Source: Hyphomicrobiales bacterium
GTDB lineage: Bacteria > Pseudomonadota > Alphaproteobacteria > Rhizobiales > RI-29
Assembly (NCBI GenBank): GCA_016125495.1
Contig: WGLQ01000004.1
Location: forward strand, 372,001 to 436,000
DNA length: 64,000 nucleotides
Direction: 5' to 3'
Position 1 is the stretch's first letter. The number at the start of each line of letters is the position of its first letter. The notes below the pieces were generated by a model. It was not told the DNA's origin and searched no databases. It saw only the letters and a list, made by a program, of their open reading frames with translations. A program made the translations under genes and the position numbers. Positions 471 through 14,612 of the stretch are shown piece after piece.

Positions 471-926
471 GGAGCGATGGGCGCGGGTTCGAAGCCCCAC
501 GCTTTCCGGGCGCGAAGCAGCGTGGATCTGCACGAGTCCCGAATGCACTGCGGCATGGAGCGCAGCGGAACCATGCGCATCAGACCCGGGACCGCCCTCG
601 TTCCGCTCCCCTCCCGCCCGAGACCGGTTCAGCCGCCCACTTCGCCGCGCCGCCTCCGGAGATCGAGCCACATTCGTGCCCGCGCTTTCCATCTGTAGCA
701 CTTTGGCTACAGCGCAAGTGATTCGGCGTGTGGGCACTGCCACCCGATTGTCAACCTGTGGATTTTCGTGGCTATCCTGGACGGTCGACCAGCGCAAAAA
801 CGCAATGCGTTCCAGAAACTTGGAGCGCCGGTTACGACGGTATTGGGGATGTCGCGCCGCGCGAGGATCACCGGTCCGCAATTGCTGACCGCAGTCTAGC
901 CGGCAGGTCGAAATGGGGATTCGGGG
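471..926. other. Intergenic region upstream of the second porin
   Basis: These 456 bases contain no convincing gene; the open frames here have poor composition and no ribosome binding site. The region must hold the promoter and leader of the porin at 927. I could not assign -35/-10 boxes or an operator with confidence. Confidence 0.6.
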
Positions 927-2237
927 ATGTCGATGATCGGCAGCGGATTTCGGGGAACCTCCAGCAGGCTGGCGCTGGTCGCCGGCGGGTGGCTGATTGC
1001 GGTCGGGATGTTGAACCCGGCGATGGCGGCCGACCTCGGCGGCGATTGCTGCGCCGACCTCGAGGAGCGCGTGGCGGAGTTGGAGGCGACCGTCGTGCGC
1101 CATGCCAACCGCAAGATCTCTCTCGAGATTTCGGGGCAGGTGAACCAGGCCCTCCTCTGGTACGACAACAATGAGGAATCTGACGTCTACGTCATCGACA
1201 ACGACGAGTCGTCCACGCGCCTCAACTTCTCGGGTGAGGGCACTGTCCGTCCGGGTCTGGCGATCGGTTTCCAGATCGAATTCGACCTCCAGATGGGCAA
1301 CAACTTCACGCTCAACGCCAACGACGGCGACGATGGTGACCTTCTCCAGTTCCGCAAGTCGGAGTGGTTCATCCGCGACGACGCGCTGGGCACACTGACG
1401 GTCGGCCAGGGCTCGTTCGCCGCCGATGGCACCTTCGAGAGTTCGTTCTCGGAAGGCTGGTACTCCGGCGTCGGCTACGGCACGGTCATCACCAACAACT
1501 ACATCCAGCTCTTCGACAACATCAGCCGCACCTACCTCAGCACGAGCTGGGTGACGATCGGCACGGACCTCGACCCCGAGCGCGGCAACCGCGTGCGCTA
1601 CGACACGCCGACCTTCGCCGGCTTCACGCTCTCGGCGTCGTGGGGCGAGGACGACTATTGGGACGTCGCGGCCCGCTACGCCGGTGAATGGAACGGCATC
1701 GAGGTGATCGCAGGCGCCTCCTACAACGAGAATTCCGACGACCAGCAGTGCTTCGCCAACACGGTCCCCGAAAACCACACTTCGGATCCGGCGAACCTCA
1801 CGTCGAACGACTCCAATTGCACGACGGTCAACACGTGGGGCGGTTCGATTGCCTTCAAGCACACCTCGTCCGGCTTCCATGTCCAGGGCGGTTACGTCGA
1901 GGTCGAATTCGAGAACACGGACGGCGACAACACGGTCGTCAGCGCGCGCGAGGCGACGAACTCGAACTACTGGTGGACCGCGGCTGGCTGGCAGGGCCGC
2001 CTCAACGACCTCGGTCAGTCCGACATCACCGTGCAGTATATCGAAGCCTCCGACGTGTTCGTCCTCGGCCTCGAGTATACCGCCTGGAGCATCGGTTTCT
2101 CGCAGGCCATCGATGCCGTCGGGGCGACCGCCTACATCGGCTATCACCACGAGGAATTCGAGGACAACCCGCTCTATGGGGCCGACGTCGAGGGCGAGAT
2201 CGACCGTATCGTTGCCGGCATGCTCGTGACGTTCTGA
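927..2237 (+). CDS. Outer-membrane porin (rhizobial Porin_2 type)
   Basis: This 436-residue porin forms passive diffusion channels in the outer membrane. A signal peptide covers about residues 1-34, with cleavage after Ala-Met-Ala. The mature start has the Ala-Asp-Leu-Gly-Gly-Asp-Cys-Cys motif and a short Glu/Leu-rich helical stretch typical of porins in Hyphomicrobiales. The rest alternates barrel strands with acidic, Asn-rich loops and ends in Val-Thr-Phe. A GGGGA-type ribosome site precedes the ATG; the Met two codons later is also possible. It is diverged from its two neighbours, which resemble each other more closely, and may have a different loop specificity. Confidence 0.93.
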   Translation: MSMIGSGFRGTSSRLALVAGGWLIAVGMLNPAMAADLGGDCCADLEERVAELEATVVRHANRKISLEISGQVNQALLWYDNNEESDVYVIDNDESSTRLNFSGEGTVRPGLAIGFQIEFDLQMGNNFTLNANDGDDGDLLQFRKSEWFIRDDALGTLTVGQGSFAADGTFESSFSEGWYSGVGYGTVITNNYIQLFDNISRTYLSTSWVTIGTDLDPERGNRVRYDTPTFAGFTLSASWGEDDYWDVAARYAGEWNGIEVIAGASYNENSDDQQCFANTVPENHTSDPANLTSNDSNCTTVNTWGGSIAFKHTSSGFHVQGGYVEVEFENTDGDNTVVSAREATNSNYWWTAAGWQGRLNDLGQSDITVQYIEASDVFVLGLEYTAWSIGFSQAIDAVGATAYIGYHHEEFEDNPLYGADVEGEIDRIVAGMLVTF

Positions 2238-2270
2238 TCCCGAACGGCGAATTGACCGTCATCCGAATGT

Positions 2271-2309
2271 GGCCGGTCACCGCGTGAAGTGGTGGCCGGC
2301 CGCGTTCTT
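2271..2309 (+). terminator. Hairpin after the second porin, possible terminator
   Basis: An 11-bp stem with one G-U pair (arms 2271-2281 and 2291-2301) lies 33 bases past the porin stop. The trailing T-tract is weak, so it may instead stabilise the mRNA 3' end. Confidence 0.45.
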
Positions 2310-2680
2310 GAGAGCGGGCGTGGAGATCGATGGCGTTCGCCGTGCTGGCCCGCGCCTTCGGCGAGCCGTTCCGCCATCTGGATTGTGCTCGGCCGTGGTC
2401 GATGGCGCGCCCGTTTCGCCGTGGGACCCCTCGACTGCAATCTCCAACACGCCGTGCCGGTCCTTACCCGACGTTGGCCATCTCCTTCGGCCGGGCGGCC
2501 CGCCGGATCGTCGGCTTTGCTTTGCATGGTGGTCCCGGTTGGCGCTATTGCGTTGCAGGCCAACTGCGCCGACCGCCGTATTCACGCGAGCGCTCGAGGC
2601 GGGATCGATGGTCGCGGCTCGCACGGGATGGACGCCCGCGCCGGCGTGGCCGTCGGTCAGCACACAACGAGGAGCAAGCC
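2310..2680. other. Intergenic region before the TPR-sulfotransferase
   Basis: About 370 bases follow the porin hairpin. The downstream frame stays open upstream to 2330, but the encoded stretch is Arg/Pro-rich without homology-like character, so I treat it as untranslated. A good ribosome site (GAGGAG, about 2669-2674) sits just before the chosen start at 2681. No promoter could be assigned. Confidence 0.55.
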
Positions 2681-4681
2681 ATGGCGTTGAAACCAGGGTC
2701 CGGCGGTGGTGGCGGTCCGGCCGAACTGATGCGCTCGGCGGTCCGCCTCTATGAGACCGGCGACTACGAGCGCGCCCGGAAAACCGCCCGAAAACTCCTT
2801 TCGGCCGCGCCCGGACATCCCGACGTCACCCATCTCCTCGGCGCCATTGCACTCGCCGAAGGGCGGTTTCGCGAGGCGATCGACGATTTCAACCGCTCGC
2901 TGAAGGCGAACCCGCGCCAGCCGGCGGTGCACAACAACATGGGCGAGGCCCATCGCAGGCTCGGGGAGAACGAGAAGGCGGCCGCCTGTTACGAGGCCGC
3001 CATCCGCCTCGATGGGCGAAACGCCGGGTTCCGCAACAATCTCGGCGTTGCGCTCCGCGATCTCGGCCGGCCGGAGGATGCGCTCGCGATGCTGGACGAA
3101 GCGTTGCGGCTCGAGCCCGGCAACGCCGCCGCCGAGGTCAACCGCGCCACCGTGCTCCACATCCTCGCTCGCAGCCAGGAAGCCATCGATTCCTACCGCC
3201 GGATCCTCGTGCGCGCGCCGCGCAACACCGAGGCCCTCAACAACCTCGGCAGCACACTGAACGACCTCGGGCGTTTCGAGGAAGCCATCGACCATTTCCG
3301 CAAGGTCATGGCCATCAACCCGCGCCACACGGGAGCCCATTGCAGCATCGCCGTATCGCTCCTCAAGCTCGGCCGCGGCCACGAGGCGATCCGTCATCTC
3401 GAGCTGGCGAAATCGATCGCCCCCGGCGATGCGTCGATCCTCAACCAACTCGGCAATACGCTGCGCGACATGGGCCGCATCGAGGAGGCGCTCGCGAACC
3501 TCGAGGAATCGGTGCGCCGCGACCCGACCAGCCACAAGATGCTCTGCCAGCTTGCGAATGGCTACCGCTCGGCCGGTGAGGATGATCAAGCCGAGAAGAC
3601 CTATCGTCAGGTTCTGGCCCGCGATCCCCTCGCCACGGATTGCTACCGACTGCTGGCCGAGTTCAAGCCCTATCCCCTCGACGGACCGGACGTCGCGGCC
3701 ATGAAACGCCTCTACGAGGATCCCGCCGCCCTCGACGACGAGCGGCGCATGCATCTCGCCTTCGCGCTCGGCAAGGTCCACGAAGGCGCCAGGGCGTTTG
3801 CGCAAGCCTTCGACTATTTCCTCGAAGGCAACCGCCTCCAGCGCGCCCGTTACGCTTATGACCATGCCGAGACCGAGGCCGAATTCCAGCGGATCGAGCA
3901 GGTGTTCTCGCGCACGCGCCTCGAGCAGCTGGCCGCCGCCGGCGCCGGCCATCCGGACGCGGCCCCGATCTTCATCCTCGGCATGCCGCGCTCTGGCACC
4001 ACACTTGTCGAGCAGATTCTCGCGAGCCATTCCGACGTCTTCGGTGCCGGCGAACTCTACGACATGCAGGACATCGCCTCGATCGAGCAGGTGCGCACGA
4101 CCCGCACCTACCCCGACTGCTTCGCCGATGCCGCGCCCGCGCGCTTCGACGAACTCGGGCGCGAGTACGTCCGCCGGGTCCGCGAGATCGCCGGCACCGC
4201 TCCCCGCTTCACCGACAAGATGCCCCACAACTTCCGCTACGTCGGCTTGATCCGCGCCATGCTTCCCAACGCGCGCATCATCCACTGCCGCCGCGAGCCC
4301 GCCGACAACTGCTTGTCGATCTTCAAGAATTTTTTCACCGACGCGCACCGCTACGCCACCGACCTCGCCGATCTCGGCCGTTATTACCTCGCTTACCGGG
4401 ACCTCATGGCGCACTGGGAAGCGATCGCCCCGGCAGCCATCCATACCGTCCAGTACGAGGAAATGGTGGCCGACCAGGAGGGCCAATCCCGCCGCCTGCT
4501 CGAATACTGCGGGCTGGCCTGGGAGGATCGGGTGCTCGATTTCCACGAGACCGAGCGCATGGTGAACACCATCAGCGTCAGCCAGGTCAGGCGCCCGATA
4601 TACACGACCTCGGTCAAGCTCTCCGAGCGCTACGGCGAGCGTCTGCGCCACCTTCTGGAGCACTTGGAGCCGGGTCGATAG
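2681..4681 (+). CDS. TPR-repeat sulfotransferase
   Basis: This 666-residue protein has about nine TPR repeats in residues 15-340, recognisable by repeated Asn-Leu-Gly and Ala-Leu positions. A PAPS-dependent sulfotransferase domain fills the C-terminal half. The 5'-phosphosulfate loop is Met-Pro-Arg-Ser-Gly-Thr-Thr near residue 434, and the 3'-phosphate region is Cys-Arg-Arg-Glu-Pro-Ala-Asp-Asn near 535. There is no signal peptide, so it should be cytoplasmic. The family transfers sulfate from PAPS to an acceptor; the TPR part probably binds a protein or glycan partner. The acceptor cannot be told from sequence. It lies alone between two porin genes and has its own ribosome site. Confidence 0.88.
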   Translation: MALKPGSGGGGGPAELMRSAVRLYETGDYERARKTARKLLSAAPGHPDVTHLLGAIALAEGRFREAIDDFNRSLKANPRQPAVHNNMGEAHRRLGENEKAAACYEAAIRLDGRNAGFRNNLGVALRDLGRPEDALAMLDEALRLEPGNAAAEVNRATVLHILARSQEAIDSYRRILVRAPRNTEALNNLGSTLNDLGRFEEAIDHFRKVMAINPRHTGAHCSIAVSLLKLGRGHEAIRHLELAKSIAPGDASILNQLGNTLRDMGRIEEALANLEESVRRDPTSHKMLCQLANGYRSAGEDDQAEKTYRQVLARDPLATDCYRLLAEFKPYPLDGPDVAAMKRLYEDPAALDDERRMHLAFALGKVHEGARAFAQAFDYFLEGNRLQRARYAYDHAETEAEFQRIEQVFSRTRLEQLAAAGAGHPDAAPIFILGMPRSGTTLVEQILASHSDVFGAGELYDMQDIASIEQVRTTRTYPDCFADAAPARFDELGREYVRRVREIAGTAPRFTDKMPHNFRYVGLIRAMLPNARIIHCRREPADNCLSIFKNFFTDAHRYATDLADLGRYYLAYRDLMAHWEAIAPAAIHTVQYEEMVADQEGQSRRLLEYCGLAWEDRVLDFHETERMVNTISVSQVRRPIYTTSVKLSERYGERLRHLLEHLEPGR

Positions 4682-5210
4682 GCCCTCACGCGTCCCGGAA
4701 TGACGCGTGCCGAGCGAAATCTTAACCATTCTCGTGCAAGGAACGGTTGATTACGGGGGCGATGGTCTTGCAACCGCCGTTCTCGCGTCGGACGGTCGAC
4801 CTCGTAAGCAGAGTCGGCGCCGCTCCTCGGGGCGGAGCCTGCACGTGGCGGTCCAGAGGAGGGTTGGCGGGTTCTCGGTGACACATTCGTGGCGGATCGG
4901 CAACAGAGTTGCCTCAAACCCCGAATGACATTGGAGTCCGCCTTTACTCGACTCACCCGTCGCGACTAACTCGGGACACCAGTCGAGTCGTGTGCGTTGC
5001 TAATCGCTGAGCAAGAGAGCCAGTAGTCGCTCTGACGACGTGGCCCCAGCCGAAGACAGCAAGCCAATCGCGCACCAGTTCCCGTCAGAGTTCCTGTTGT
5101 GTGGAGTACGACCGCGGCGCGCGCCTAGGAGCAGGGCCCCGGTCGAAGGCGAGCAGGCGCATCCGCGCGCTGCTTCACCAGCTATGAAACGAATGATTGT
5201 GGAGATGGAA
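4682..5210. other. Long intergenic region and leader of the third porin
   Basis: This 529-base stretch holds a short hairpin just after the sulfotransferase (arms 4687-4694 and 4702-4709, no clear T-tract). A TTAACCAT element near 4723 resembles a CtrA half-site. The rest is probably promoter and leader for the porin at 5211. The porin frame is open from 5040, but the part before 5211 is not protein-like. Confidence 0.5.
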
Positions 5211-6518
5211 ATGATTGGGGGACTTAAAAAGACGTCTAGTCGCCTCGCCATCGCCGCTGCTGCTGGGCTTATGGTGGGCGGTTTCGCGCTGACCCCGGCA
5301 CAGGCGGCAGACCTTGGCGGTGACTGCTGCGCGGACCTCGAGGAGCGGGTGTCCGAGCTCGAGGCAACGGCCGTTCGCCACGCGAACCGTAAGGTTTCGC
5401 TGACGATTTCCGGTCAGGTCAACCAAGCCCTGCTCTGGTTCGACAACAACGAAGAGGCTGACGTCTACGTCATCGACAACGACGAGTCGTCCACCCGCCT
5501 CAACTTCCGCGGTGAGGGCACTGTCCGTCCGGGGATGACCATCGGCTTCCAGATCGAATTCGATCTCCAGATGGGCAACAACTTCTCGTTCGACGCCAAC
5601 GACGGCGACGACGGTGACCTCTTCCAGTTCCGCCGCGCCGAGTGGTATGTCCGTGACGATCGTCTCGGCACGCTGACGGTCGGTCAGGGCTCGATGGCTT
5701 CGGACGGCGCCCACGAGGTGTCCTTCTCCGAAGGCTGGTATGCTGGCGTCGGCTACGGCCTCGGCATCACCAACAACTACATCTCGCTCTTCGACGACGT
5801 CTCTGGCCTCTACTTCCAGAGCACGACGTGGGCCACGATCGGCACCGACCACGACGCGTCGCGCCGCAACCGTGTCCGCTACGACTCGCCGACGCTGCAC
5901 GGCTTCACGCTGTCGGCATCGTGGGGTGAGGACGACGAGTGGGATGCCGCTCTGCGCTACTCGAACGAGTGGAACGGCCTGCGCGTTGCAGCCGCCATCT
6001 CGTACCACGAGGACCACGACGACAACACCTGCTTCACGAACACCGTTCCGGAAAACCACACGTCGGTTCCTGGTGTTCTGACGGGCAACGACTCGAACTG
6101 TACGTCTACCGAGACGTGGGGCGGCTCGATCGCCTTCCTGCACGTTCCGTCGGGCATTCACCTCCAGGGTGGTTACTCTGAGCGTGAATTCATCAACACG
6201 GACGGCAACGATGCCGTCGTCGCTCTGCGCGAGGCCAACGAGGCCGAGCACTGGTGGATCGCTGCTGGTATCCAGGGTCGCTGGAACCACCTCGGTCTCT
6301 CCGACGTCTCGATCCAATACATCGAGAACACCAACCAGGGCGTTCTGGGCCTCGACTACACCAACTGGGCGATCAGCTTCACGCAGGCGATCGACGCGGT
6401 TGGTGCGACGGCCTACATCGCCTACCACCACGAGGAGTTCGACGACAACGCACTCTTCGGCGTGGACGTCGGTGGCGAGATCGACCGTGTCATCGCTGGC
6501 ATGCGCGTCCGCTTCTGA
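5211..6518 (+). CDS. Outer-membrane porin (rhizobial Porin_2 type)
   Basis: This 435-residue porin has a signal peptide over about residues 1-30 (Ala-Gln-Ala cleavage), the Gly-Gly-Asp-Cys-Cys mature start, and a C-terminal Val-Arg-Phe. Four in-frame ATGs occur at 5184, 5193, 5205 and 5211. I chose 5211 because GGAG at 5201-5204 is 6 bases away and the resulting Met-Ile-Gly start matches the paralogue at 927. Its last third is almost identical to the partial porin at the window start, codon for codon in long runs, suggesting recent duplication or gene conversion. The family gives general diffusion channels; solute preference is not visible. Confidence 0.93.
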   Translation: MIGGLKKTSSRLAIAAAAGLMVGGFALTPAQAADLGGDCCADLEERVSELEATAVRHANRKVSLTISGQVNQALLWFDNNEEADVYVIDNDESSTRLNFRGEGTVRPGMTIGFQIEFDLQMGNNFSFDANDGDDGDLFQFRRAEWYVRDDRLGTLTVGQGSMASDGAHEVSFSEGWYAGVGYGLGITNNYISLFDDVSGLYFQSTTWATIGTDHDASRRNRVRYDSPTLHGFTLSASWGEDDEWDAALRYSNEWNGLRVAAAISYHEDHDDNTCFTNTVPENHTSVPGVLTGNDSNCTSTETWGGSIAFLHVPSGIHLQGGYSEREFINTDGNDAVVALREANEAEHWWIAAGIQGRWNHLGLSDVSIQYIENTNQGVLGLDYTNWAISFTQAIDAVGATAYIAYHHEEFDDNALFGVDVGGEIDRVIAGMRVRF

Positions 6519-6540
6519 TCGGAACGGCAACGACTACGGG

Positions 6541-6570
6541 AAAGGGGCGCGTCGGCGCCCCTTTTCTTTT
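6541..6570 (+). terminator. Rho-independent terminator of the third porin
   Basis: A 10-bp perfect stem (6541-6550 with 6555-6564) closes a GTCG loop and is followed by a T-rich tail. It is almost the same as the terminator at 439-470. Confidence 0.9.
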
Positions 6571-6967
6571 GCGCGCGTCGAACGCGCGAAGGTTTCCTAG
6601 CTGGCGGTGGATTGAGGCCCGAAGGCCCTCGAGCGCGCATTGCGAACGCCACACGCCGCCCCCACCATTTGCACTGCAAGCATTCCCAAACACTTGTGAT
6701 TTGTGTTGTGCGCGCTATTTGAGGCAGAATACGCCCTGTGGACGTTGCACTTTTCATGAGTTGGCCACTGTTCCGACATGGCGGGGCCAAGTGCGGTGTA
6801 TAGCTTGTGGACAACGGGCCCCCATTGTTGCGTGGCAGTCACAATTTTGCCCAAACGGCCGGAGTTGCCGTGCGTTAGCAGGCGTTTAACTTGCCGGATG
6901 GCACTCTGCTGGCGGAAAGATGAGATGCGGTCGTGACGTTGAAGTTGCATTTGCGGGGTAGTTGTCG
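6571..6967. other. Intergenic region before a small secreted protein
   Basis: This stretch of nearly 400 bases is richer in A and T than its surroundings and has no supported gene. Two sequences near 6737 and 6804 contain TGTGGACA-like runs resembling degenerate DnaA boxes, too few and too weak to call an origin. It presumably carries the promoter for 6968. Confidence 0.5.
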
Positions 6968-7303
6968 ATGACCAAGTTGTTGGGCACCTGTTTAGTGGGA
7001 GCGGCGCTACTTCTGGCGGGCCCTGCTCTCGGGTTTCAGGAGACGAGCGTGCTTCCGGGCGTCGCTTCACCCTCGGGTGGGCCGGTTGCCGGTATCGCGA
7101 GCGGGCAGGACGGTGCGTCCCCTGGCTCCGCGAACCAGACGAGTGTCGAGTTCCCGGGATTCGGCAGCCTCGGCGTGCTGCCCAAGCTCGACTTCGGTCT
7201 CGAGCTGCTCTACGGCGCCAACGAGCCGACATCGGCCGAGGATATCGGGGTCGGCGATGCCGATGCGCTCAAGATCCAGGGCCGCGTCAAGCACCGCTTC
7301 TGA
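6968..7303 (+). CDS. Small exported protein ending in a barrel-like strand
   Basis: This encodes 111 residues with a signal peptide (about residues 1-24, ending near Ala-Leu-Gly-Phe) and a Gly/Ser/Pro-rich middle. Two short segments, Leu-Asp-Phe-Gly-Leu-Glu-Leu-Leu-Tyr and the final Lys-His-Arg-Phe, look like outer-membrane strands. Such a protein cannot form a barrel alone. I do not recognise a family. The start was chosen at ATG 6968 with GGGGT upstream, over a TTG six bases earlier. Its place right after the porin array, plus the terminal Phe, suggests an envelope role, which is inference only. Confidence 0.7.
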   Translation: MTKLLGTCLVGAALLLAGPALGFQETSVLPGVASPSGGPVAGIASGQDGASPGSANQTSVEFPGFGSLGVLPKLDFGLELLYGANEPTSAEDIGVGDADALKIQGRVKHRF

Positions 7304-7377
7304 GCCTGCAATTCCGCTCGAAGGCGCCCCTCGGCTGGGGGCTCGCGGAGGTCGACGCCAACTGCAAGGATTTCCGA

Positions 7378-7412
7378 CGGACGCTCCCCATGCGGCGAGC
7401 GTCCGTTTTTCG
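7378..7412 (+). terminator. Rho-independent terminator
   Basis: A 9-bp perfect stem (7378-7386 with 7397-7405) is followed by TTTTT. It ends the transcript of the small exported protein and separates it from the convergent MBL-fold gene. Confidence 0.85.
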
Positions 7413-7465
7413 TTGTCTCCGTCCGGTTGATGATTGAGCGCGGCGCCAGCCACCAGCTGGGCGCT

Positions 7466-8377
7466 TCAGCCGACGGATACTCTGGCGATCGAGGCATTGA
7501 GCCCACGCCATTCGATCGTACCGCGCGCGACATCGATGGTCATGAGGTCCTCACCGACGACGACCGGCCCCGCGAAGTCATGCATCACGCGCGCGAGCAG
7601 CGCGCCTGCATCGGTTTCCGGCGGCACGATGTGGGTGAGGACGAGCGCCCCAACCCTCGCCTCCCGCGCAACGATGCCAACCTGATCGGCAAGTGTGTGA
7701 TAGCTCATGACGTTGTGGATCGTCGCTTCGGTCCTGAGGCTACCCGTTTGCAGCGTCGTTGGCCCGGGGTGGGTCATCACCTCGTGCACCAGCACGTCCG
7801 CGCCCGCAGCCGCCCGCGCGAGCCCCTCGCAGGGGCGCGTATCGCCGGAGAGGACCAGTCGGCGCCCACCGGCCTCGAACGAAAAGCCGAAGGCATGCGG
7901 CACCGGCGCGTGCTCGACCCTGAATGCGGTGACCTTCACTCCCTGGTTGTCGATGAGGCAGGCACCCTCGACGATCTCCTCGACCTCGATGTCGAAGGCC
8001 GCCGTGCTGGTGCGCGCCTCGAACGCGATCCTGAGATCGCGCTCCTCACGGTAAGCCTCCATCTGCATGTCGATGAACCGGCGGGTTCCAGGCGGACCGA
8101 AAATGCGCTGCGGTCGGTCACGGTTCTGATGCCAGGAGGAGATCAGAAACTGGTAGAGGTCGACGACGTGGTCGCTGTGCAGATGCGTGAGAAGAACGGC
8201 ATCGATGTCGCGGCCGCAGGCGCCGGCGGCGAGCAGCCTCTGCGTTGCTCCGGACCCCAGGTCAACCAGCACGTTCAGCGGCCCACAGCGAACGAGGCTC
8301 GCCGGTCCATGGCGCCGCGTCGAGACCACTGGGCAGCCGGTGCCGAGAAGCGTGATCGAGAGCCGCCGGTCGGTCAT
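7466..8377 (-). CDS. MBL-fold metallo-hydrolase (RNase Z/arylsulfatase-like)
   Basis: This 303-residue beta-lactamase-fold hydrolase has the zinc-binding motif His-Leu-His-Ser-Asp-His at about residues 64-69 and further metal ligands at Ser-Gly-Asp-Thr and near the C-terminal Leu-Thr-His-Ile. The Gly-Thr-Gly start strand (Leu-Leu-Gly-Thr-Gly-Cys-Pro) places it in the group containing RNase Z and periplasmic arylsulfatase-like hydrolases. No signal peptide is seen. The ATG at 8377 has a strong GGAGGA site. The substrate is unknown. It is divergent from the AbrB-type gene. Confidence 0.85.
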   Translation of the reverse strand: MTDRRLSITLLGTGCPVVSTRRHGPASLVRCGPLNVLVDLGSGATQRLLAAGACGRDIDAVLLTHLHSDHVVDLYQFLISSWHQNRDRPQRIFGPPGTRRFIDMQMEAYREERDLRIAFEARTSTAAFDIEVEEIVEGACLIDNQGVKVTAFRVEHAPVPHAFGFSFEAGGRRLVLSGDTRPCEGLARAAAGADVLVHEVMTHPGPTTLQTGSLRTEATIHNVMSYHTLADQVGIVAREARVGALVLTHIVPPETDAGALLARVMHDFAGPVVVGEDLMTIDVARGTIEWRGLNASIARVSVG

Positions 8378-8463
8378 CTTTCCTCCGAGGCAACGCGCTT
8401 CGGTCTGCCAGCGTTGCAGGCTGCCGACTTCCAAGCAGCGCTCGCAGCCCCTAGTGATAGGGC

Positions 8464-9537
8464 ATGATCATCGCAGGCATCGCCGGTTCGCGGCAAGCTG
8501 TCCACCGCAACCTCCTCGCCCTCGCCATCGCCGCCGTTGGTGGCCTTGCCGCCGAGCACCTCGGGCTCGTTGCCGGTTTGCTTTCCGGCGCCATGTTCCT
8601 GGTCGCGGTTGCCGCGCTTTCCGGTGTGCCGATCGAGGTTTCGGGCCGTGTCCGATACGTGGCTTTTGTCGCCATCGGCATTGTTCTCGGGTCGACCGTC
8701 ACCGAGGAGACGATTGCCTCCGTGCCGCGCTGGCCGGCCTCGATCGCCGCGCTCGCTGCCTCCGTCGTCGTGGTCATGCTCATCCTGCCGCGCTACCTCA
8801 TGCGCCGGGCCGGGCTCGACGAGACGACGGCGCGGCTCTGCGCCATTCCGGGAGCGCTGAGCTTCGTCTTGGCGCTCTCGATCGACCTCGGCGCCGATAC
8901 CCGTCGCGTGGCGGTGATGCATACGCTGCGGGTCACGCTGCTCCTGCTGTTCATTCCGGCGGCGGTTCAGCTCTGGTTGGGACACGTCCCGGTGCCGATG
9001 GTGCCGCACACCACTCTCGGTCTCGGCGAACTGGCCGGCCTCTTTGCCGTGTCCGTCATCGCGACCGAGATCGCCAAGCGCTTCGGCATGCCGTCACCGT
9101 CGTTCACGATGCCGCTCTTCGTGGCCGCGGCCGCCTGTGGCAGCGGCCTGTTGCACGGCGGTGTTCCGGCCTGGATCGTTTGGCCGGCCCTGATCGCCAC
9201 GGGTGCCGCCGTCGGCGCCCGATTCATCGGGATGACCGTCGCCTTTCTGCTGGAGAGCCTGCGTCTCGCGATGGCCGGTTTCGCGATCTCGGTGGGCACC
9301 AGCATCGCCTTTGCCGTGGCTGCCTCGGAATTGCTCGGCTTGCCGCTGGTCCAACTCTTGCTCGCCTTCGCGCCGGGCGGGCTCGATGCGATGACGGTGC
9401 TGGCCTTCATGTTGGGTGTCGATCCGGCCTTCGTTGCTACGCACCAGCTCATTCGCTTTCTCGGCCTCGCGATGGCGGTGCCGTTCCTCTTTCGCCGCGA
9501 GGCTCGCATCGAGCGCGCGGGTCCGCCGGGAGAGTGA
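8464..9537 (+). CDS. AbrB-family integral membrane protein
   Basis: This 357-residue protein consists of two repeated blocks of hydrophobic helices, about nine to ten in total. It matches the AbrB family (often misnamed ammonia monooxygenase), with the typical Gly-Leu-Leu-Ser-Gly-Ala-Met near residue 40 and Ala-Pro-Gly-Gly-Leu-Asp-Ala-Met near residue 306. The family is thought to transport or regulate, but no substrate is proven. The 86-base gap to the divergent MBL gene must hold both promoters. Confidence 0.8.
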   Translation: MIIAGIAGSRQAVHRNLLALAIAAVGGLAAEHLGLVAGLLSGAMFLVAVAALSGVPIEVSGRVRYVAFVAIGIVLGSTVTEETIASVPRWPASIAALAASVVVVMLILPRYLMRRAGLDETTARLCAIPGALSFVLALSIDLGADTRRVAVMHTLRVTLLLLFIPAAVQLWLGHVPVPMVPHTTLGLGELAGLFAVSVIATEIAKRFGMPSPSFTMPLFVAAAACGSGLLHGGVPAWIVWPALIATGAAVGARFIGMTVAFLLESLRLAMAGFAISVGTSIAFAVAASELLGLPLVQLLLAFAPGGLDAMTVLAFMLGVDPAFVATHQLIRFLGLAMAVPFLFRREARIERAGPPGE

Positions 9538-9624
9538 TCGCGGTTCCGGGGCCGCCGGCCAAGCTTTGGCCACAAGTGGCCATTGGTGTTGGCCGGCGGC
9601 GTCGTGGCGCCACGTTCGGTTTCG

Positions 9625-10851
9625 ATGACTTGGAGGTCGAGGTTGCCGGAGGGGGAGAGAACGCCGCACGAGGCCGAGGCGATCGACGTTGCGCCGCCGC
9701 ACCTCGATCCGATTGGGGCGATCGCCCCGCCGCGCGCCGCCCTTCACACCTGGCCCTGGCGCCGCCTCGCCCTCTCGGGGATGATCGTCCTGGCGGCTTT
9801 TTGCCTCTACAATGGCATCACCCAGCCGATCATCCGATTGACGCAGCTCTACGTGTTCAGTGACGCCCATTCGCTGGCGAGCGCCGTCTATGCGCTCTAT
9901 CTCGACGGCGAATTGATGCTGGCGGCGATCGTGCTCGTCTTTTCCATTCTTCTCCCGACCGTCAAGCTCGGCTATCTGCTCGTGCTTGCGACGCTGCCGA
10001 CCGAACGCTTGCGCACCCGCCAGCGCGTGCTCCAGCGCCTGGAAGGCATCGGCAAGTGGTCCATGCACGATGTTTTGATCCTCGCGATCACCATCGTCTA
10101 TCTGAAGTCCTCCGGCCTCAGTGACGCCACCAGCCAGCCGGGGGCCCGCTACTTCGCGGTCTCCGTCATTCTCATCATGCTGGCCTACGGTTGGATCAAG
10201 CACTCCGCGCGGGAGGTGGTCGCGACAGGTGCGATGGCGCCGGAGCCCGGCACCGGCACCGGTCCGGGTGCCTTCGCCGGCGGCGCCCCCTCTCCCTTCC
10301 ATCCGCTGCGCCGCCTCGCCATCGCGGTGCTGACGGCCGCCGCCGGGATCACCCTGGCGCTCGGCCTTTCGCTTCCGACGATCAAGCTGACCAAACTCTA
10401 CGTCTGGACCGACGAGCACTCGGTGCTCACCGCCATCTGGGCGCTGGTGCAGGACGACGAGGTCTTCCTCGCTGTCCTGATCGGTCTCTTTTCCGTTGTT
10501 TTCCCCACCCTCAAGCTCTTCTACCTGATGGCGGTTTCGAACCTGTCGACGGTTCGCCCGCAGGCTCAGAGCCGGCTCTTCACGCGCCTCGAGTGGCTCG
10601 GCAAGTGGTCGATGATGGACGTGCTCGTGCTCGCCCTCATCATCTTCTACGTCAACGCGTCGTCGTTCGCCGAGGCGAGCGCGCTGGCCGGCATCTATTA
10701 TTTCACCGCGAGCGTGTTCCTGACCATGTTCGCCTATGCGCTGGTCAAGGGCGGTCTCGTCGCGCGTCGGCCGGCCGGGCGCCCCGTGCCGCCGGCCGCG
10801 CCGGATCCCCTCAAGCCTGGAGGCGATCCACGAACCAGCGCGTCAGGCTGA
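9625..10851 (+). CDS. Paraquat-inducible protein A (PqiA) family, two domains
   Basis: This inner-membrane protein of 408 residues contains two PqiA units. Each ends in a Gly-Lys-Trp-Ser-Met motif (near residues 148 and 328) and helical hairpins with Leu-Pro-Thr-Val/Ile-Lys-Leu. PqiA/YebS proteins work with MCE proteins (PqiB/YebT) in lipid transfer across the envelope. No MCE partner is adjacent here. The start is uncertain: ATG 9625 lacks a clear ribosome site. The 3' end overlaps the convergent ATP-grasp gene by about 40 bases. Confidence 0.82.
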   Translation: MTWRSRLPEGERTPHEAEAIDVAPPHLDPIGAIAPPRAALHTWPWRRLALSGMIVLAAFCLYNGITQPIIRLTQLYVFSDAHSLASAVYALYLDGELMLAAIVLVFSILLPTVKLGYLLVLATLPTERLRTRQRVLQRLEGIGKWSMHDVLILAITIVYLKSSGLSDATSQPGARYFAVSVILIMLAYGWIKHSAREVVATGAMAPEPGTGTGPGAFAGGAPSPFHPLRRLAIAVLTAAAGITLALGLSLPTIKLTKLYVWTDEHSVLTAIWALVQDDEVFLAVLIGLFSVVFPTLKLFYLMAVSNLSTVRPQAQSRLFTRLEWLGKWSMMDVLVLALIIFYVNASSFAEASALAGIYYFTASVFLTMFAYALVKGGLVARRPAGRPVPPAAPDPLKPGGDPRTSASG

Positions 10852-12292
10852 GCCAGACGGCGTTCTTTTCCTCGGCATCCTCATAGCCATGGTCGATGTT
10901 GGGATTGTCGTTGATCTCCATGATGAAGACGCCGTCGGGGGTCTCCTTGAGATCGACGCCATAGAGCCCGTCGCCGATGAGGCGCGCCGCATGGATGCCG
11001 GCATCGAGCACTTCCGGCGGCACGTCGGCGAGTGGAACGGCTTTGCAGCCGCCCTGTGTCACCGTCCCGTCGGCCTTGTTGTTGACGATCTGCCAGTGGC
11101 CGCGCACCATCGGGTACTGCGCCGCAAAGAGGAGTTCGCCGCCGAGCACGCCGATGCGCCAGTCGAAGCTCGTCGGGATGAATTTTTGGGCGAGCAGGAG
11201 ATCACTGTCCTCGAACCAGAGCTTCGTCAGCGCCTCGAGTTCGGCCATGTTGTCGGCCTTCTTGACGCCGCGGCTGAACGAGGAGTCGGGCGCCTTGATC
11301 ACCACCGGAAAGCCGATCTCGTCGGCCACCATGGCGAGCGGCGTCGAGGGCCGCACCGCCATCGTCTTGGGCTGCGGCAGTCCGGCGAGCGAGAGCCTCT
11401 CCCAGAGGAAGACCTTGTTCGTGCAGCGGATCATCGAGATCGGATCGTCGATCACAGGCATTCCCTCCGCCCACGCGCGGCGCGCGAAGCGGTAGGTATG
11501 GTCGCGGATCGACGTCGTTTCGCGGATGAAAAGAGCGTCGAATTCGGCCAGCCTCGAGATGTCGCGCTTCTGGATCGGCTCGACTTCGACGCCCTGCTTT
11601 TCCGCGATCCGCGCCCAGTGCTTCAGCGAGGAAAGCGCCGAGGGGGGCTGCGGGTCCTTGGGATCGAAGAGCAGACCGATGGAATAGCGCGGCACCATGC
11701 GCGGCTTGGGCGAGCGCCAGGAGCGCTTGCAATAGACGGCGAGCGAGGCCGCGAAATGGGCCCGCTCCTCCTTGCTGAGGGTGTTGATGCCGCGGGTCTT
11801 GATGTTCTGGATGCGGATGCTCCGGTTGGCGCCGGCCCCCGTCACGCTGAGGCGCACGCTGAGGATCGGCGCGCGGAACCAGTCGAACAGCAGCCGCGCG
11901 AAGCGTTTGACTGGAGGAAAATCAGGCTGGCCGAGACAGAAAAGGATGCGTTCCGGAATATCGGCGCTCTGCGTGTCTGCGAGGTCCTTGCCGAGCGCGT
12001 CCTCCAGCTCCGGCAACGCTTTCTCGAAACCGTGCCGTCCCTCGAGGTCGAGGATCGTCTCGACCATGGGGATGATGCGGTGACCGCGCGCCTCCGCCAG
12101 CAGCGAGGCGTGATAGCCGTCGCTCTGGTAGTTGTAATTTCGAGAGAGATTTATGAGGCGCTGGCCGGATCGTTCGAATACGGCCGGCAGCCACACATAG
12201 TCTCCCGTCGTTGCGAGGCGGTAGGGCGCGCCGAGATTCTCGAGGTCGCGCAGATCGTCGGCGAGAATGATCCAATCGGTCACGGGTGCCAT
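10811..12292 (-). CDS. RimK-like ATP-grasp ligase with N-terminal RLAN domain
   Basis: This encodes 493 residues. The first 190 or so (Ile-Leu-Ala-Asp-Asp and Leu-Ser-Arg-Asn-Tyr-Asn-Tyr-Gln-Ser-Asp-Gly-Tyr) match the RLAN domain that precedes RimK-like ATP-grasps. The ATP-grasp core spans about residues 290-480, with Val-Val-Ile-Lys-Ala-Pro for nucleotide binding and Met-Glu-Ile-Asn-Asp-Asn-Pro-Asn for metal binding. Such enzymes form amide bonds, adding amino acids to peptides, proteins or small molecules. It starts 9 bases after the GNAT-C39 gene ends, so the two are co-transcribed and probably act on the same product. Substrate unknown. Confidence 0.85.
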   Translation of the reverse strand: MAPVTDWIILADDLRDLENLGAPYRLATTGDYVWLPAVFERSGQRLINLSRNYNYQSDGYHASLLAEARGHRIIPMVETILDLEGRHGFEKALPELEDALGKDLADTQSADIPERILFCLGQPDFPPVKRFARLLFDWFRAPILSVRLSVTGAGANRSIRIQNIKTRGINTLSKEERAHFAASLAVYCKRSWRSPKPRMVPRYSIGLLFDPKDPQPPSALSSLKHWARIAEKQGVEVEPIQKRDISRLAEFDALFIRETTSIRDHTYRFARRAWAEGMPVIDDPISMIRCTNKVFLWERLSLAGLPQPKTMAVRPSTPLAMVADEIGFPVVIKAPDSSFSRGVKKADNMAELEALTKLWFEDSDLLLAQKFIPTSFDWRIGVLGGELLFAAQYPMVRGHWQIVNNKADGTVTQGGCKAVPLADVPPEVLDAGIHAARLIGDGLYGVDLKETPDGVFIMEINDNPNIDHGYEDAEEKNAVWLSLTRWFVDRLQA

Positions 12293-12301
12293 GGTTCCCG
12301 G

Positions 12302-13498
12302 CTAGGTTGCGATGAGATTGCGAAAGATAACCGCGGCGCGCAGATTGTTGCGACCGTGGCGCCACATGCGCTCGAGTTCATCGTCCGGCACCGGCACGGA
12401 GACGGCGTCGAGCGCGGTCTCGTCCTTCTCGGCATCGACGAACGGATCGTGCACGAACACATGGCCCTTGTTGCACGCATAGGCAAGCACCCAGTGCGGC
12501 AAACGCTCGGCCAGCATGCGATGGCCCGAGATGAGCAGCGCCGCCAGCGCGCCGTCGTCGATCGCCAGGCGCAGTTCCGCGATCGAGAGGCGACGACGGT
12601 GGACGGGGATTGCGAGTTTCTCGGCGCGCACCGCGAGGTCTTCCTGCGCGAGCTGCATGACGCGCCGCTTACGCTCGTCGCGCACCGTCTGCAGGAGGTG
12701 CGGCCCGTCGGTGCTGACGTGAAGTTCGGCCGCCAAACCCCGTTCCGCGGCCGCGACAGCGATGCCGACCGGCTCGCAGCCCCCGATTCCGCGCGCCATG
12801 TAGACCGTCGTCGCCACCTTCCAGAGCGCGATTTCGTCCAGCGCGCTCGGCTCGTAACCGGGTGAAAGGCGCGACAGCGCCATCATCAGGCAGGCGGGCC
12901 CGCATGTGAAATCGGTGGTCTGCGGCCAGTATCGGGGCACGCGGTCGGCGGCCGGCGGTTCGCCCGAGAGCCGTTTCGACATTCGCACCGCGTCCGAGCC
13001 GTCGGCGTAGTAGTGCGGCAGATGCATGAGCGGGCGAAACCCCAGGGATCGATAGAGTGTGATCGCCGGCGTGTTGTCGGGATCGACCTCGAGGCGCAGC
13101 ACGTGCCGGTCGAGCTCGAGGAGTGCGTTTTCCATCTCGCCGAGCAGTGCGCGGGCAACGCCGCGCCCTCGCGCGCTCGCCGCCGTCGCGATGGAATAGA
13201 GCCGGGCCGAGCCGGTTCCACGTCGAAAAAGGCAAAGTGCGTAGCCGAGGAGGGTGCCGGCGGTTGCGCCAGCGACGGTCGTTCCCGGCTCGTGAGATTC
13301 GACCGCCACGAGGAGGAGTGCCGACGGGGAGGTAACGAAGCTCTGGAAGCTGCGGCGGGAAACCCGGTCGCTGGAAAAGGAGACATTCTCGAGGGCGACG
13401 AGATGGTCGACGTCTCCGGCCACGGCCCGTCGTATCGCAATGTCCGGTGTGGCCGCGAGGCCTGATTGGCGCTGTTCGATAGCGACGGCGCTTGCCAT
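12302..13498 (-). CDS. GNAT acetyltransferase fused to C39-like peptidase
   Basis: This 398-residue fusion has a GNAT domain at about residues 20-175, with the acetyl-CoA loop Ala-Arg-Gly-Arg-Gly-Val-Ala near 109-115. A papain/C39-like domain at 186-395 has Cys199 in Thr-Cys-Gly-Pro-Ala-Cys, His335 in His-Trp-Val-Leu and Asp351 in His-Asp-Pro as the likely triad. An AAGG site precedes ATG 13498. It is followed immediately by the ATP-grasp ligase. Together they could ligate, trim and acetylate a peptide or protein terminus. The combination recurs in bacteria as I recall, but its function is not established. Confidence 0.85.
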   Translation of the reverse strand: MASAVAIEQRQSGLAATPDIAIRRAVAGDVDHLVALENVSFSSDRVSRRSFQSFVTSPSALLLVAVESHEPGTTVAGATAGTLLGYALCLFRRGTGSARLYSIATAASARGRGVARALLGEMENALLELDRHVLRLEVDPDNTPAITLYRSLGFRPLMHLPHYYADGSDAVRMSKRLSGEPPAADRVPRYWPQTTDFTCGPACLMMALSRLSPGYEPSALDEIALWKVATTVYMARGIGGCEPVGIAVAAAERGLAAELHVSTDGPHLLQTVRDERKRRVMQLAQEDLAVRAEKLAIPVHRRRLSIAELRLAIDDGALAALLISGHRMLAERLPHWVLAYACNKGHVFVHDPFVDAEKDETALDAVSVPVPDDELERMWRHGRNNLRAAVIFRNLIAT

Positions 13499-13634
13499 TG
13501 TCGGCCTTGGCCCGAAGGGGCGGTGGATGTGACGCCGCTAATTAGTGGCGCGCGGGAGCCGCTGCAAGTGTCGTGGAGGGTGGGGCCGCTCACAAATTGT
13601 GTCAGCGCGCCCGCACCGGCACCGGGCCGCGACT

Positions 13635-14612
13635 TCAGGGAAGCAGGATCGTTGCCCCGGTCGTCGCGCGCGCCTCCAGTTCGCGGTGCGCCTCGGGCGC
13701 CGCCGAGAGCGGATGCCGCTTGCCGATCTCGATCCGCACCTTGCCCGACGTCACCATCGCGAAAAGGTCGTCCGCCATTTCCTGGCAGCGCTCGCGCGTC
13801 GCGATGTGAGTGAAGAGGGTCGGCCGCGTCAGATAGAGCGAGCCCTTGGCCGCGAGCACACCGACGTCGAATGGCGCCACCTTGCCCGAGGCATTGCCGA
13901 AGCTGATCATCAGGCCGAACGGGGCAAGGCAATCGAGCGAGCCGTCCCAGGTATCCTTGCCGACCGAGTCCATGACGACCTTGACGCCCTTGCCGCCGGT
14001 GATCTCGCGAACGCGCTCGACGAAATTCTCCGTTCGGTAATTGATGACGTGAGCCGCGCCGGCCGCCTTGGCGCGCGCGCATTTCTCGTCACTTCCCGCC
14101 GTGCCGATGAGGTTCACCCCCATGGCGCGGGCCCACTGGCAGGCGATGAGGCCAACGCCACCGGCGGCAGCATGAAAGAGCACGGTGTCGCCGGCTTCGA
14201 GCCGTGCCGTGCGCCGGAAAAGGTACTGCGTCGTCAGCCCCTGCAGCATCATCGCCGCGCCTTCCTCGAAACTGATCGAGGCGGGCAGGCGGCAGACCTG
14301 CTTGGCCGGCATCACGCGCGCGCTCGCATAGGCCCCCGGAGGATTGGCCGCATAGGCGGCCCGGTCTCCGGGAACGAGGTGCTCCACACCCGCACCGACC
14401 GCCTCGATGGTGCCGGCTCCCTCCATGCCGATGCCGTGGGGCAGGGTGAGCGGATAGAGGCCGCTGCGATGATAGACGTCGATGTAGTTGAGGCCGATCG
14501 CGCCATGCCGGATGCGAACCTCGCCTGGACCGGGTTCGCCGACCGCCACGTCACGCAGCCGCATTTGCTCCGGCCCACCGAAGGCCTCGATGACGATCGC
14601 CTGTTCCATCAT
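13635..14612 (-). CDS. qor: NADPH:quinone oxidoreductase (QOR, MDR superfamily)
   Basis: This 325-residue zinc-independent medium-chain reductase is close in length to E. coli QorA. It has the substrate-domain motif Gly-Leu-Asn-Tyr-Ile-Asp-Val-Tyr and the Rossmann loop Ala-Ala-Ala-Gly-Gly-Val-Gly near residue 150. It should reduce quinones with NADPH in the cytoplasm. The ATG overlaps the TGA of ttcA, so translation is probably coupled; GGAG lies 5 bases upstream of the first of two adjacent ATGs. Confidence 0.92.

Follow-up and report, generated by a model that had tools for sequence, protein, structure and literature searches.

An RLAN-type ATP-grasp ligase paired with an acetyltransferase–peptidase fusion: a candidate two-gene system for a small amino-end-capped peptide

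The window, a 64,000-nucleotide stretch of a Hyphomicrobiales bacterium contig (WGLQ01000004.1), contains two adjacent genes on the minus strand: a gene for a fusion of a GNAT acetyltransferase and a DUF3335 peptidase, and, 9 bp downstream of it, a gene for a ligase with RLAN and ATP-grasp domains (Table 1). Both ORFs of the pair that the initial annotation had drawn at 10811-13498, 9 bases apart, were confirmed on this strand. An ORF antisense to the pair (10736-12865, plus strand) has no support as a gene, and no regulatory RNA was identified at the locus by Rfam.

Table 1. Features of the ligase and acetyltransferase–peptidase genes in the window.
Feature	Position	Strand	Basis
RLAN + RimK/LysX-type ATP-grasp ligase gene	10811..12292	-	493 aa; Pfam, AlphaFold, structure match
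Pre-ATP-grasp + ATP-grasp module, residues 203-493	10814..11686	-	K293, K333, D447, E459, N461 invariant
RLAN domain, residues 31-182	11747..12202	-	PF14401; invariant N48, Y60, R69
Gap between ligase and fusion genes	12293..12301	.	9 bases; sequence
GNAT + DUF3335 peptidase fusion gene	12302..13498	-	398 aa; Pfam, AlphaFold
DUF3335 papain-like peptidase domain, residues 190-392	12323..12931	-	PF11814; Q193, C199, H335, D351
GNAT domain, RimI/Ard1 type, residues 19-182	12953..13444	-	fold match; E137, Y149

The ligase belongs to the RLAN type by its match to PF14401 (117.2 bits vs. a Pfam cut-off of 25), and its ATP-grasp domain matches PF08443 (RimK) at 29.8 bits (cut-off 21). In the AlphaFold model (pLDDT 88.4), residues 203-493 superpose on structures of LysX, ArgX, and RimK (the ribosomal protein S6 glutamate ligase) with Z 27-28 (for 3vpd, Z 27.9 and rmsd 2.5 over 268 residues); the RLAN part has no sequence match in the PDB. 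The metal-site residues D447, E459, and N461, and the RLAN residues N48, Y60, and R69, are identical in 115/115 aligned relatives. By its profile matches and modelled structure, the first protein is a RimK/LysX-type enzyme, an ATP-dependent carboxylate-amine ligase. While sharing the fold of RimK, LysX, and ArgX, it differs from them in its additional N-terminal RLAN domain and in scores far below the cut-offs of their families: TIGR00768 (RimK family; 83.6 vs. 143.4), the RimK equivalog NF007764 (20 vs. 331), and TIGR02144 (LysX/ArgX; 88.4 vs. 275.6). LysW is also missing from the genome, as determined by a search that recovered lysW in four control genomes.

The fusion protein (AlphaFold pLDDT 88.4, pTM 0.84) matches Acetyltransf_1 at 51.1 bits (cut-off 20.7) and DUF3335 (PF11814, “Peptidase_C39 like family”) at 236.6 bits (cut-off 25). 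Its GNAT domain is closest in fold to N-alpha-acetyltransferases (Z 20-22 overall), including Ard1 (4pv6, Z 22.3) and RimI (2cnm/5isv, Z 21.5-21.7), and retains E137 (113/113 aligned relatives) and Y149 (107/113), which we take to be the catalytic positions of RimI. Nevertheless, it is not assignable as the RimI S18 acetyltransferase (56.1 bits on the equivalog vs. a cut-off of 86.4), and partner GNATs from other genomes, at 74-80 bits, also fall below this cut-off; unlike RimI and Ard1, the GNATs studied here are joined to a peptidase or paired with a ligase. The match lists of the structure searches (Foldseek/VIA) were taken up by ATP-grasp and GNAT domains.

Among 79 DUF3335 domains, the catalytic C199 (codon 12904-12902), H335 (12496-12494), and the oxyanion-type Q193 are invariant (79/79), position 351 (codon 12448-12446) is aspartate in 73 and glutamate in six, and C241 is an additional near-invariant cysteine. 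The Cys-His-Asp triad, the oxyanion glutamine, and the Pfam score together place the domain in the papain-like DUF3335 family. As a bacteriocin-leader C39 peptidase (PF03412) it scores 16.5 bits against a cut-off of 22, and its fusion partner is a GNAT instead of an ABC transporter. The “C39” of the initial annotation was therefore a loose label, above the cut-off for DUF3335 yet below that for PF03412. By sequence and model, the second protein combines a RimI/Ard1-type peptide N-alpha-acetyltransferase with a cysteine hydrolase whose catalytic triad is complete. The three activities originally proposed for the two genes (peptide-bond formation, N-acetylation, and papain-like cleavage) are supported, with Pfam matches to RLAN and RimK, Acetyltransf_1, and DUF3335, all above cut-offs; the active-site residues (Cys199, His335, Asp351, and the ATP-grasp metal site) had been read correctly, and the active sites remain intact throughout the relatives.

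Across relatives, the GNAT adjoins the ligase in 113/115 loci, and in 57 of the 59 ligase loci in an even sample of 299 Pseudomonadota genomes. The arrangement of the two genes varies (same-strand, divergent, or in swapped order), and in one locus (L077) GNAT and ligase are fused in a single protein of 659 aa. The peptidase domain is missing from 42/115 loci, and from the entire genome in 10/10 checked genomes with peptidase-less loci; at least 12-17 gains or losses of this domain map onto the ligase tree. The acetyltransferase is therefore the constant, near-obligate partner of the ligase, and the peptidase domain is optional. The coupling that the initial annotation proposed between the ligase and a GNAT–peptidase accordingly holds for the GNAT but not for the peptidase; relatives have lost neither the active-site residues nor the pairing. 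RLAN ligases are encoded in 56 of the 299 evenly drawn Pseudomonadota genomes (about a fifth) and in 81/369 gammaproteobacterial genomes. No phage record matched the pair; plasmid matches were to large Azospirillum/Tistrella replicons and three others.

In 15 ligase loci the neighbor is instead a GCS2 carboxylate-amine ligase, accompanied in 14 by a gene resembling N-formylglutamate amidohydrolase (FGase), and none of the 15 has a GNAT nearby. These ligases form one gammaproteobacterial clade (100% SH-aLRT) nested inside the GNAT-type ligases. In this well-supported clade the GCS2 and FGase-like pair stands in for the acetyltransferase–peptidase. The conserved residues of the ligase are unchanged across the switch; the only position that differs systematically between the two contexts is 192, a non-catalytic position in the linker. 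A DUF2817 (M14-like) gene, with no sequence match to solved structures, is a third partner that recurs in some lineages: it adjoins the ligase in all 13 ligase-bearing genomes of one family (f29), and also in G010, L175, L178, L186, L193, L221, and L248. Four loci have a Na/Ca exchanger neighbor and two a DUF155 neighbor. In a Mesorhizobium-like genome (L098), related or paralogous DUF3335 genes are located near an oligopeptide/dipeptide ABC transporter ATPase.

To look for a precursor, 3,587 small ORFs lying no more than 2.5 kb from the pair were compared across about 64 loci. No ORF of 20-120 aa near the pair was conserved across lineages, so that the small precursor peptide envisaged in the initial annotation did not materialize; clusters of small ORFs spanned at most four loci, and the recurrent ones resembled antisense readings of larger genes, several of them over DUF2817. 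The neighborhood survey of the loci revealed no conserved target or carrier gene beside the pair, and no regularly present transporter or regulator. Candidates for a conserved third gene were mostly ubiquitous families (ABC ATPase, chemoreceptor-like protein, Obg-like GTPase) and antisense frames.

The pairing of RLAN-ATP-grasp (PF14401) with GNAT-DUF3335 (PF11814) is listed in Pfam and belongs to a catalogued but as yet uncharacterised kind. The window pair is unexceptional among its members: domains and pairing are identical, all key residues are there, and nothing is specific to this locus. A passage of PMC10318531 attributes GNAT-DUF3335 fusions to Iyer et al. (2009), which makes plausible the statement in the initial annotation that the pair had appeared in comparative genomics of amidoligases; the modularity of the peptidase and the partner switch, drawn here from relatives, may or may not already stand in that work. 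An open-literature search retrieved a single mention of DUF3335, in passing, and nothing devoted to the RLAN domain. The RloABC/RimABK systems of Pseudomonas likewise couple an ATP-grasp ligase genetically to a protease, but there a retropepsin serves as the protease, and Rlo also includes a membrane protein that is an inactive transglutaminase (PMC12239564), whereas the window pair has a papain-like domain and an acetyltransferase.

The system for N-acetylglutaminylglutamine (NAGGN) also assembles GNAT, ATP-grasp, and peptidase functions around an acetylated dipeptide; its curated synthetase family (TIGR03103) combines GNAT and ATP-grasp in one enzyme, with a peptidase gene in the cluster. 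It differs in its ATP-grasp and GNAT families and in an amidotransferase that is not found beside the window pair; the two proteins of the pair score 19 and 15 bits on TIGR03103 (cut-off 569), and no protein of the window genome exceeds that cut-off. NAGGN synthetase and RLAN co-occur in seven genomes against about 5.1 expected and are statistically independent, so the link is one of analogy only. A single genome (L086) has GNAT-DUF3335 beside a NAGGN cluster, an arrangement absent from its two relatives.

We propose, at a probability of roughly 0.45, that the two genes encode an enzyme set that makes and opens a small amino-end-capped peptide. The ligase would attach one amino acid to the carboxylate of another or of a short peptide; analogy with RimK, ArgX, CofF, and MptN makes glutamate the likeliest addition. 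The acetyltransferase would cap the free alpha-amine, and the peptidase would hydrolyze an amide in the product, for turnover or trimming. In other lineages the DUF2817 hydrolase would join the set. In the GCS2 clade, GCS2 and the FGase-like hydrolase probably cap the identical ligase product differently: the cap would be acetyl here and probably a gamma-linked amino acid there, with GCS2, judging by its family, acting as a putative gamma-capping ligase.

The switch to GCS2 and FGase agrees better with a small capped peptide than with a peptide tag. A soluble small peptide is favored over a protein tag. In the tagging scenario, the ligase would append residues to a cellular protein at its C-terminus, in the manner of RimK on S6, the GNAT would modify an N-terminus in the same complex, and the peptidase would remove the tag. 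The usual substrates of RimI-like GNATs are protein N-termini, so the resemblance of the GNAT to RimI and Ard1 makes a protein substrate possible and counts against a capped peptide; the ligase module is likewise nearest to RimK and LysX in structure. RimK is, in addition, counteracted by a protease, RimB (PMC12239564). Yet the tag suggested in the initial annotation finds no conserved target or carrier gene in the neighborhood and no LysW in the genome, the equivalog cut-offs of both RimK and RimI are missed, and GCS2 and FGase are families known for amino-acid-sized substrates; we consider protein tagging unlikely.

A mainly catabolic role, in which the peptidase, with DUF2817 or FGase, degrades imported acetylated or gamma-glutamyl peptides and the ligase recycles the pieces, would suit the DUF3335 paralogues near the transporter ATPase at L098, which fit a purely catabolic peptidase and so also count against a capped peptide, as well as the recurrence of hydrolases in both GNAT and GCS2 contexts. 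The constant part of the system is biosynthetic, though, and the hydrolase domain is optional, which renders this role rather improbable. RiPP clusters in general can hold ATP-grasp enzymes and C39-type peptidases, and the peptidase might cut a short precursor encoded nearby that is also acetylated and that the ATP-grasp enzyme cross-links; with no such ORF conserved, no transporter or regulator regularly nearby, and a ligase on the RimK/LysX side by both profile and structure, RiPP maturation is very improbable.

Extending the capped-peptide proposal beyond this locus, we tentatively suggest that roughly a fifth of Pseudomonadota could make a family of non-ribosomal amino-end-capped peptides, using an RLAN ligase with either of two exchangeable caps, acetyl from the GNAT or a gamma-linked residue from GCS2, and separate hydrolases for each cap, possibly as stress or storage metabolites like NAGGN or glutathione. 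The narrowing of the core to acetyltransferase and ligase, together with a second clade with other partners, provides a defined product class for mass spectrometry; if the capped-peptide reading is true, a metabolite common among bacteria has escaped notice.

The gene pair is present where the initial annotation had placed it, with the acetyltransferase-peptidase gene transcribed first and the ligase gene second across a 9-base gap in the sequence. The C-terminal part of the fusion protein is assigned by Pfam to DUF3335, a papain-like peptidase family, and a search of the source genome identified a single ligase and a single DUF3335 gene. Profile searches of the window identified PqiA-like, AbrB-like, MBL-fold hydrolase, quinone reductase and TtcA genes around the pair, none with an evident link to it.

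Coordinates of the window genes and of loci in relatives.
Feature	Sequence	Coordinates	Strand	Description
RLAN and ATP-grasp ligase gene	window	10811-12292	-	Pfam PF14401 (117 bits), then RimK-like ATP-grasp module
GNAT-DUF3335 fusion gene	window	12302-13498	-	GNAT domain, then DUF3335 (Pfam PF11814, 236.6 bits)
MBL-fold hydrolase gene	window	7466-8434	-	near RNase Z-type and guanitoxin-pathway GntH models, under the cut-offs of both
GNAT-RLAN-ATP-grasp fusion	L077 (G247)	9053-11032		one protein of 659 aa
Arrangement with lone GNAT-DUF3335 gene	L086 (G006)	796-10961		
DUF3335 paralogues	L098 (G197)	4133-5194 and 13189-14397		N-terminal halves poorly recognisable
RLAN ligase gene	L182 (Pseudomonas aeruginosa plasmid pZYPA1927)	5788-7377		no adjacent acetyltransferase

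AlphaFold models based on aligned sets of 35 ligases and 23 fusion proteins (pLDDT 88.4 for each model) superpose ligase residues 203-493 on LysX, ArgX and RimK (Z 27-28), a likeness with which sequence profiles agree, and the GNAT domain on Ard1 and RimI (Z 20-22). The ligase scores far under the curated RimK and LysX cut-offs and the GNAT domain below that of RimI; a search of the source genome for a LysW carrier protein found none. The intact active sites claimed for the window proteins hold across larger sets of relatives: ligase K293, K333, D447, E459 and N461 are kept in all 115 aligned sequences, GNAT E137 in 113/113 and Y149 in 107/113, and peptidase Q193, C199 and H335 in all 79 DUF3335 domains, with position 351 occupied by D (73) or E (6). 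An extra cysteine, C241, sits in a G-x-G-G-C motif in 77 of the 79.

Pairing is conserved for the acetyltransferase and the ligase, but not for the peptidase domain. RLAN occurs in 56 of 299 evenly sampled Pseudomonadota genomes (59 loci), and comparison of GNAT and RLAN match positions places a matching GNAT within ~4 kb of the ligase in 57/59; of the exceptions, one is cut by a contig end (G201) and the other has the fusion gene on another contig (G193). Among 115 loci with longer flanks (the 80 named being the best-scoring, biased towards Mesorhizobium and relatives), a GNAT lies near the ligase in 113, whereas the peptidase domain is present in only 73. At one locus, GNAT is fused to the ligase, convergent with a separate GNAT-DUF3335 gene (L077). 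On the ligase tree, the peptidase domain is gained or lost at least 17 times (12 forced by well-supported branches), and DUF3335 is absent genome-wide in 10/10 checked genomes that have GNAT without an adjacent peptidase. Therefore, the acetyltransferase and ligase are the constant unit, and the peptidase is an optional addition. In the tree, the ligases of two MAG contigs that bear the label Acidobacteriota (L162 and L167) group within Hyphomonadaceae, pointing to misbinning or recent transfer.

A third partner is DUF2817 (PF10994), in which an HxxE...H...E pattern, read directly from the sequences, resembles M14-like hydrolases. In one family (f29), every one of the 13 genomes with the ligase carries it no more than 4 kb from the pair, as do G010 and several other loci; the window's own genome has none (genome search). 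Of 40 genomes that match DUF2817 strongly, 25 have RLAN where ~7.5 would be expected, an excess inflated by shared ancestry.

DUF3335 has been described as often fused to GNAT, with citation of Iyer et al. (2009) (passage in PMC10318531). The contexts described here may already be listed in Iyer et al. (2009); an open-literature search for the RLAN domain found no paper. The pair in the window belongs to this known, uncharacterised kind and is typical of it.

We favour a capped small peptide as the product of this enzyme set: the ligase and acetyltransferase would make it, and the optional hydrolases would open it. N-acetylglutaminylglutamine (NAGGN) synthetase, a GNAT and ATP-grasp set able to make an acetylated dipeptide, is a precedent. 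RLAN and NAGGN, however, occur independently of each other (7 genomes have both, ~5.1 expected). A single genome has a full NAGGN-type cluster (amidotransferase, GNAT-ATP-grasp synthetase and M42 peptidase) and, ~4 kb downstream of it, a lone GNAT-DUF3335 gene with DUF2817 next after it (L086); this arrangement does not recur in its relatives. Protein tagging by the ligase and acetyltransferase is a possible alternative, as each of the two enzyme types is closely related to enzymes with protein substrates. Maturation of a RiPP is unlikely, since the conserved small precursor peptide that the initial annotation proposed looking for did not appear in a small-ORF survey near the pair. Elsewhere, two DUF3335 paralogues flank a region that encodes a LysR regulator and the ATPase of an oligopeptide/dipeptide ABC transporter (L098).

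Gammaproteobacteria, with RLAN in 81/369 genomes, show a switch of partner. Across 77 loci (74 from this sample, three from plasmid records), 56 have GNAT, 15 have a GCS2 carboxylate-amine ligase without GNAT (14 also with an N-formylglutamate-amidohydrolase-like protein), six lack GNAT and GCS2 in their vicinity, and the two never occur together. Of these six partnerless loci, two are on a short contig or close to where a contig ends; DUF3335 occurs elsewhere in three of the genomes that carry the six. Within a few genes of one plasmid-borne ligase are a gamma-glutamyltransferase and a glutamate/aspartate ABC transporter (L182). The GCS2-context ligases and one partnerless relative form a single clade (100% SH-aLRT) among GNAT-type ligases, and none of 14 genomes checked from it has DUF3335 over the cut-off. 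Both context groups share 51 ligase positions at ≥98% identity; the sole systematic difference between them is at position 192, in the linker. The simplest inference from these sequences is that the ligase reaction would have remained unchanged while the enzymes that handle its substrate or product were swapped; judging from the families involved, an N-acetyl cap would have been replaced, probably by a gamma-linked amino acid.
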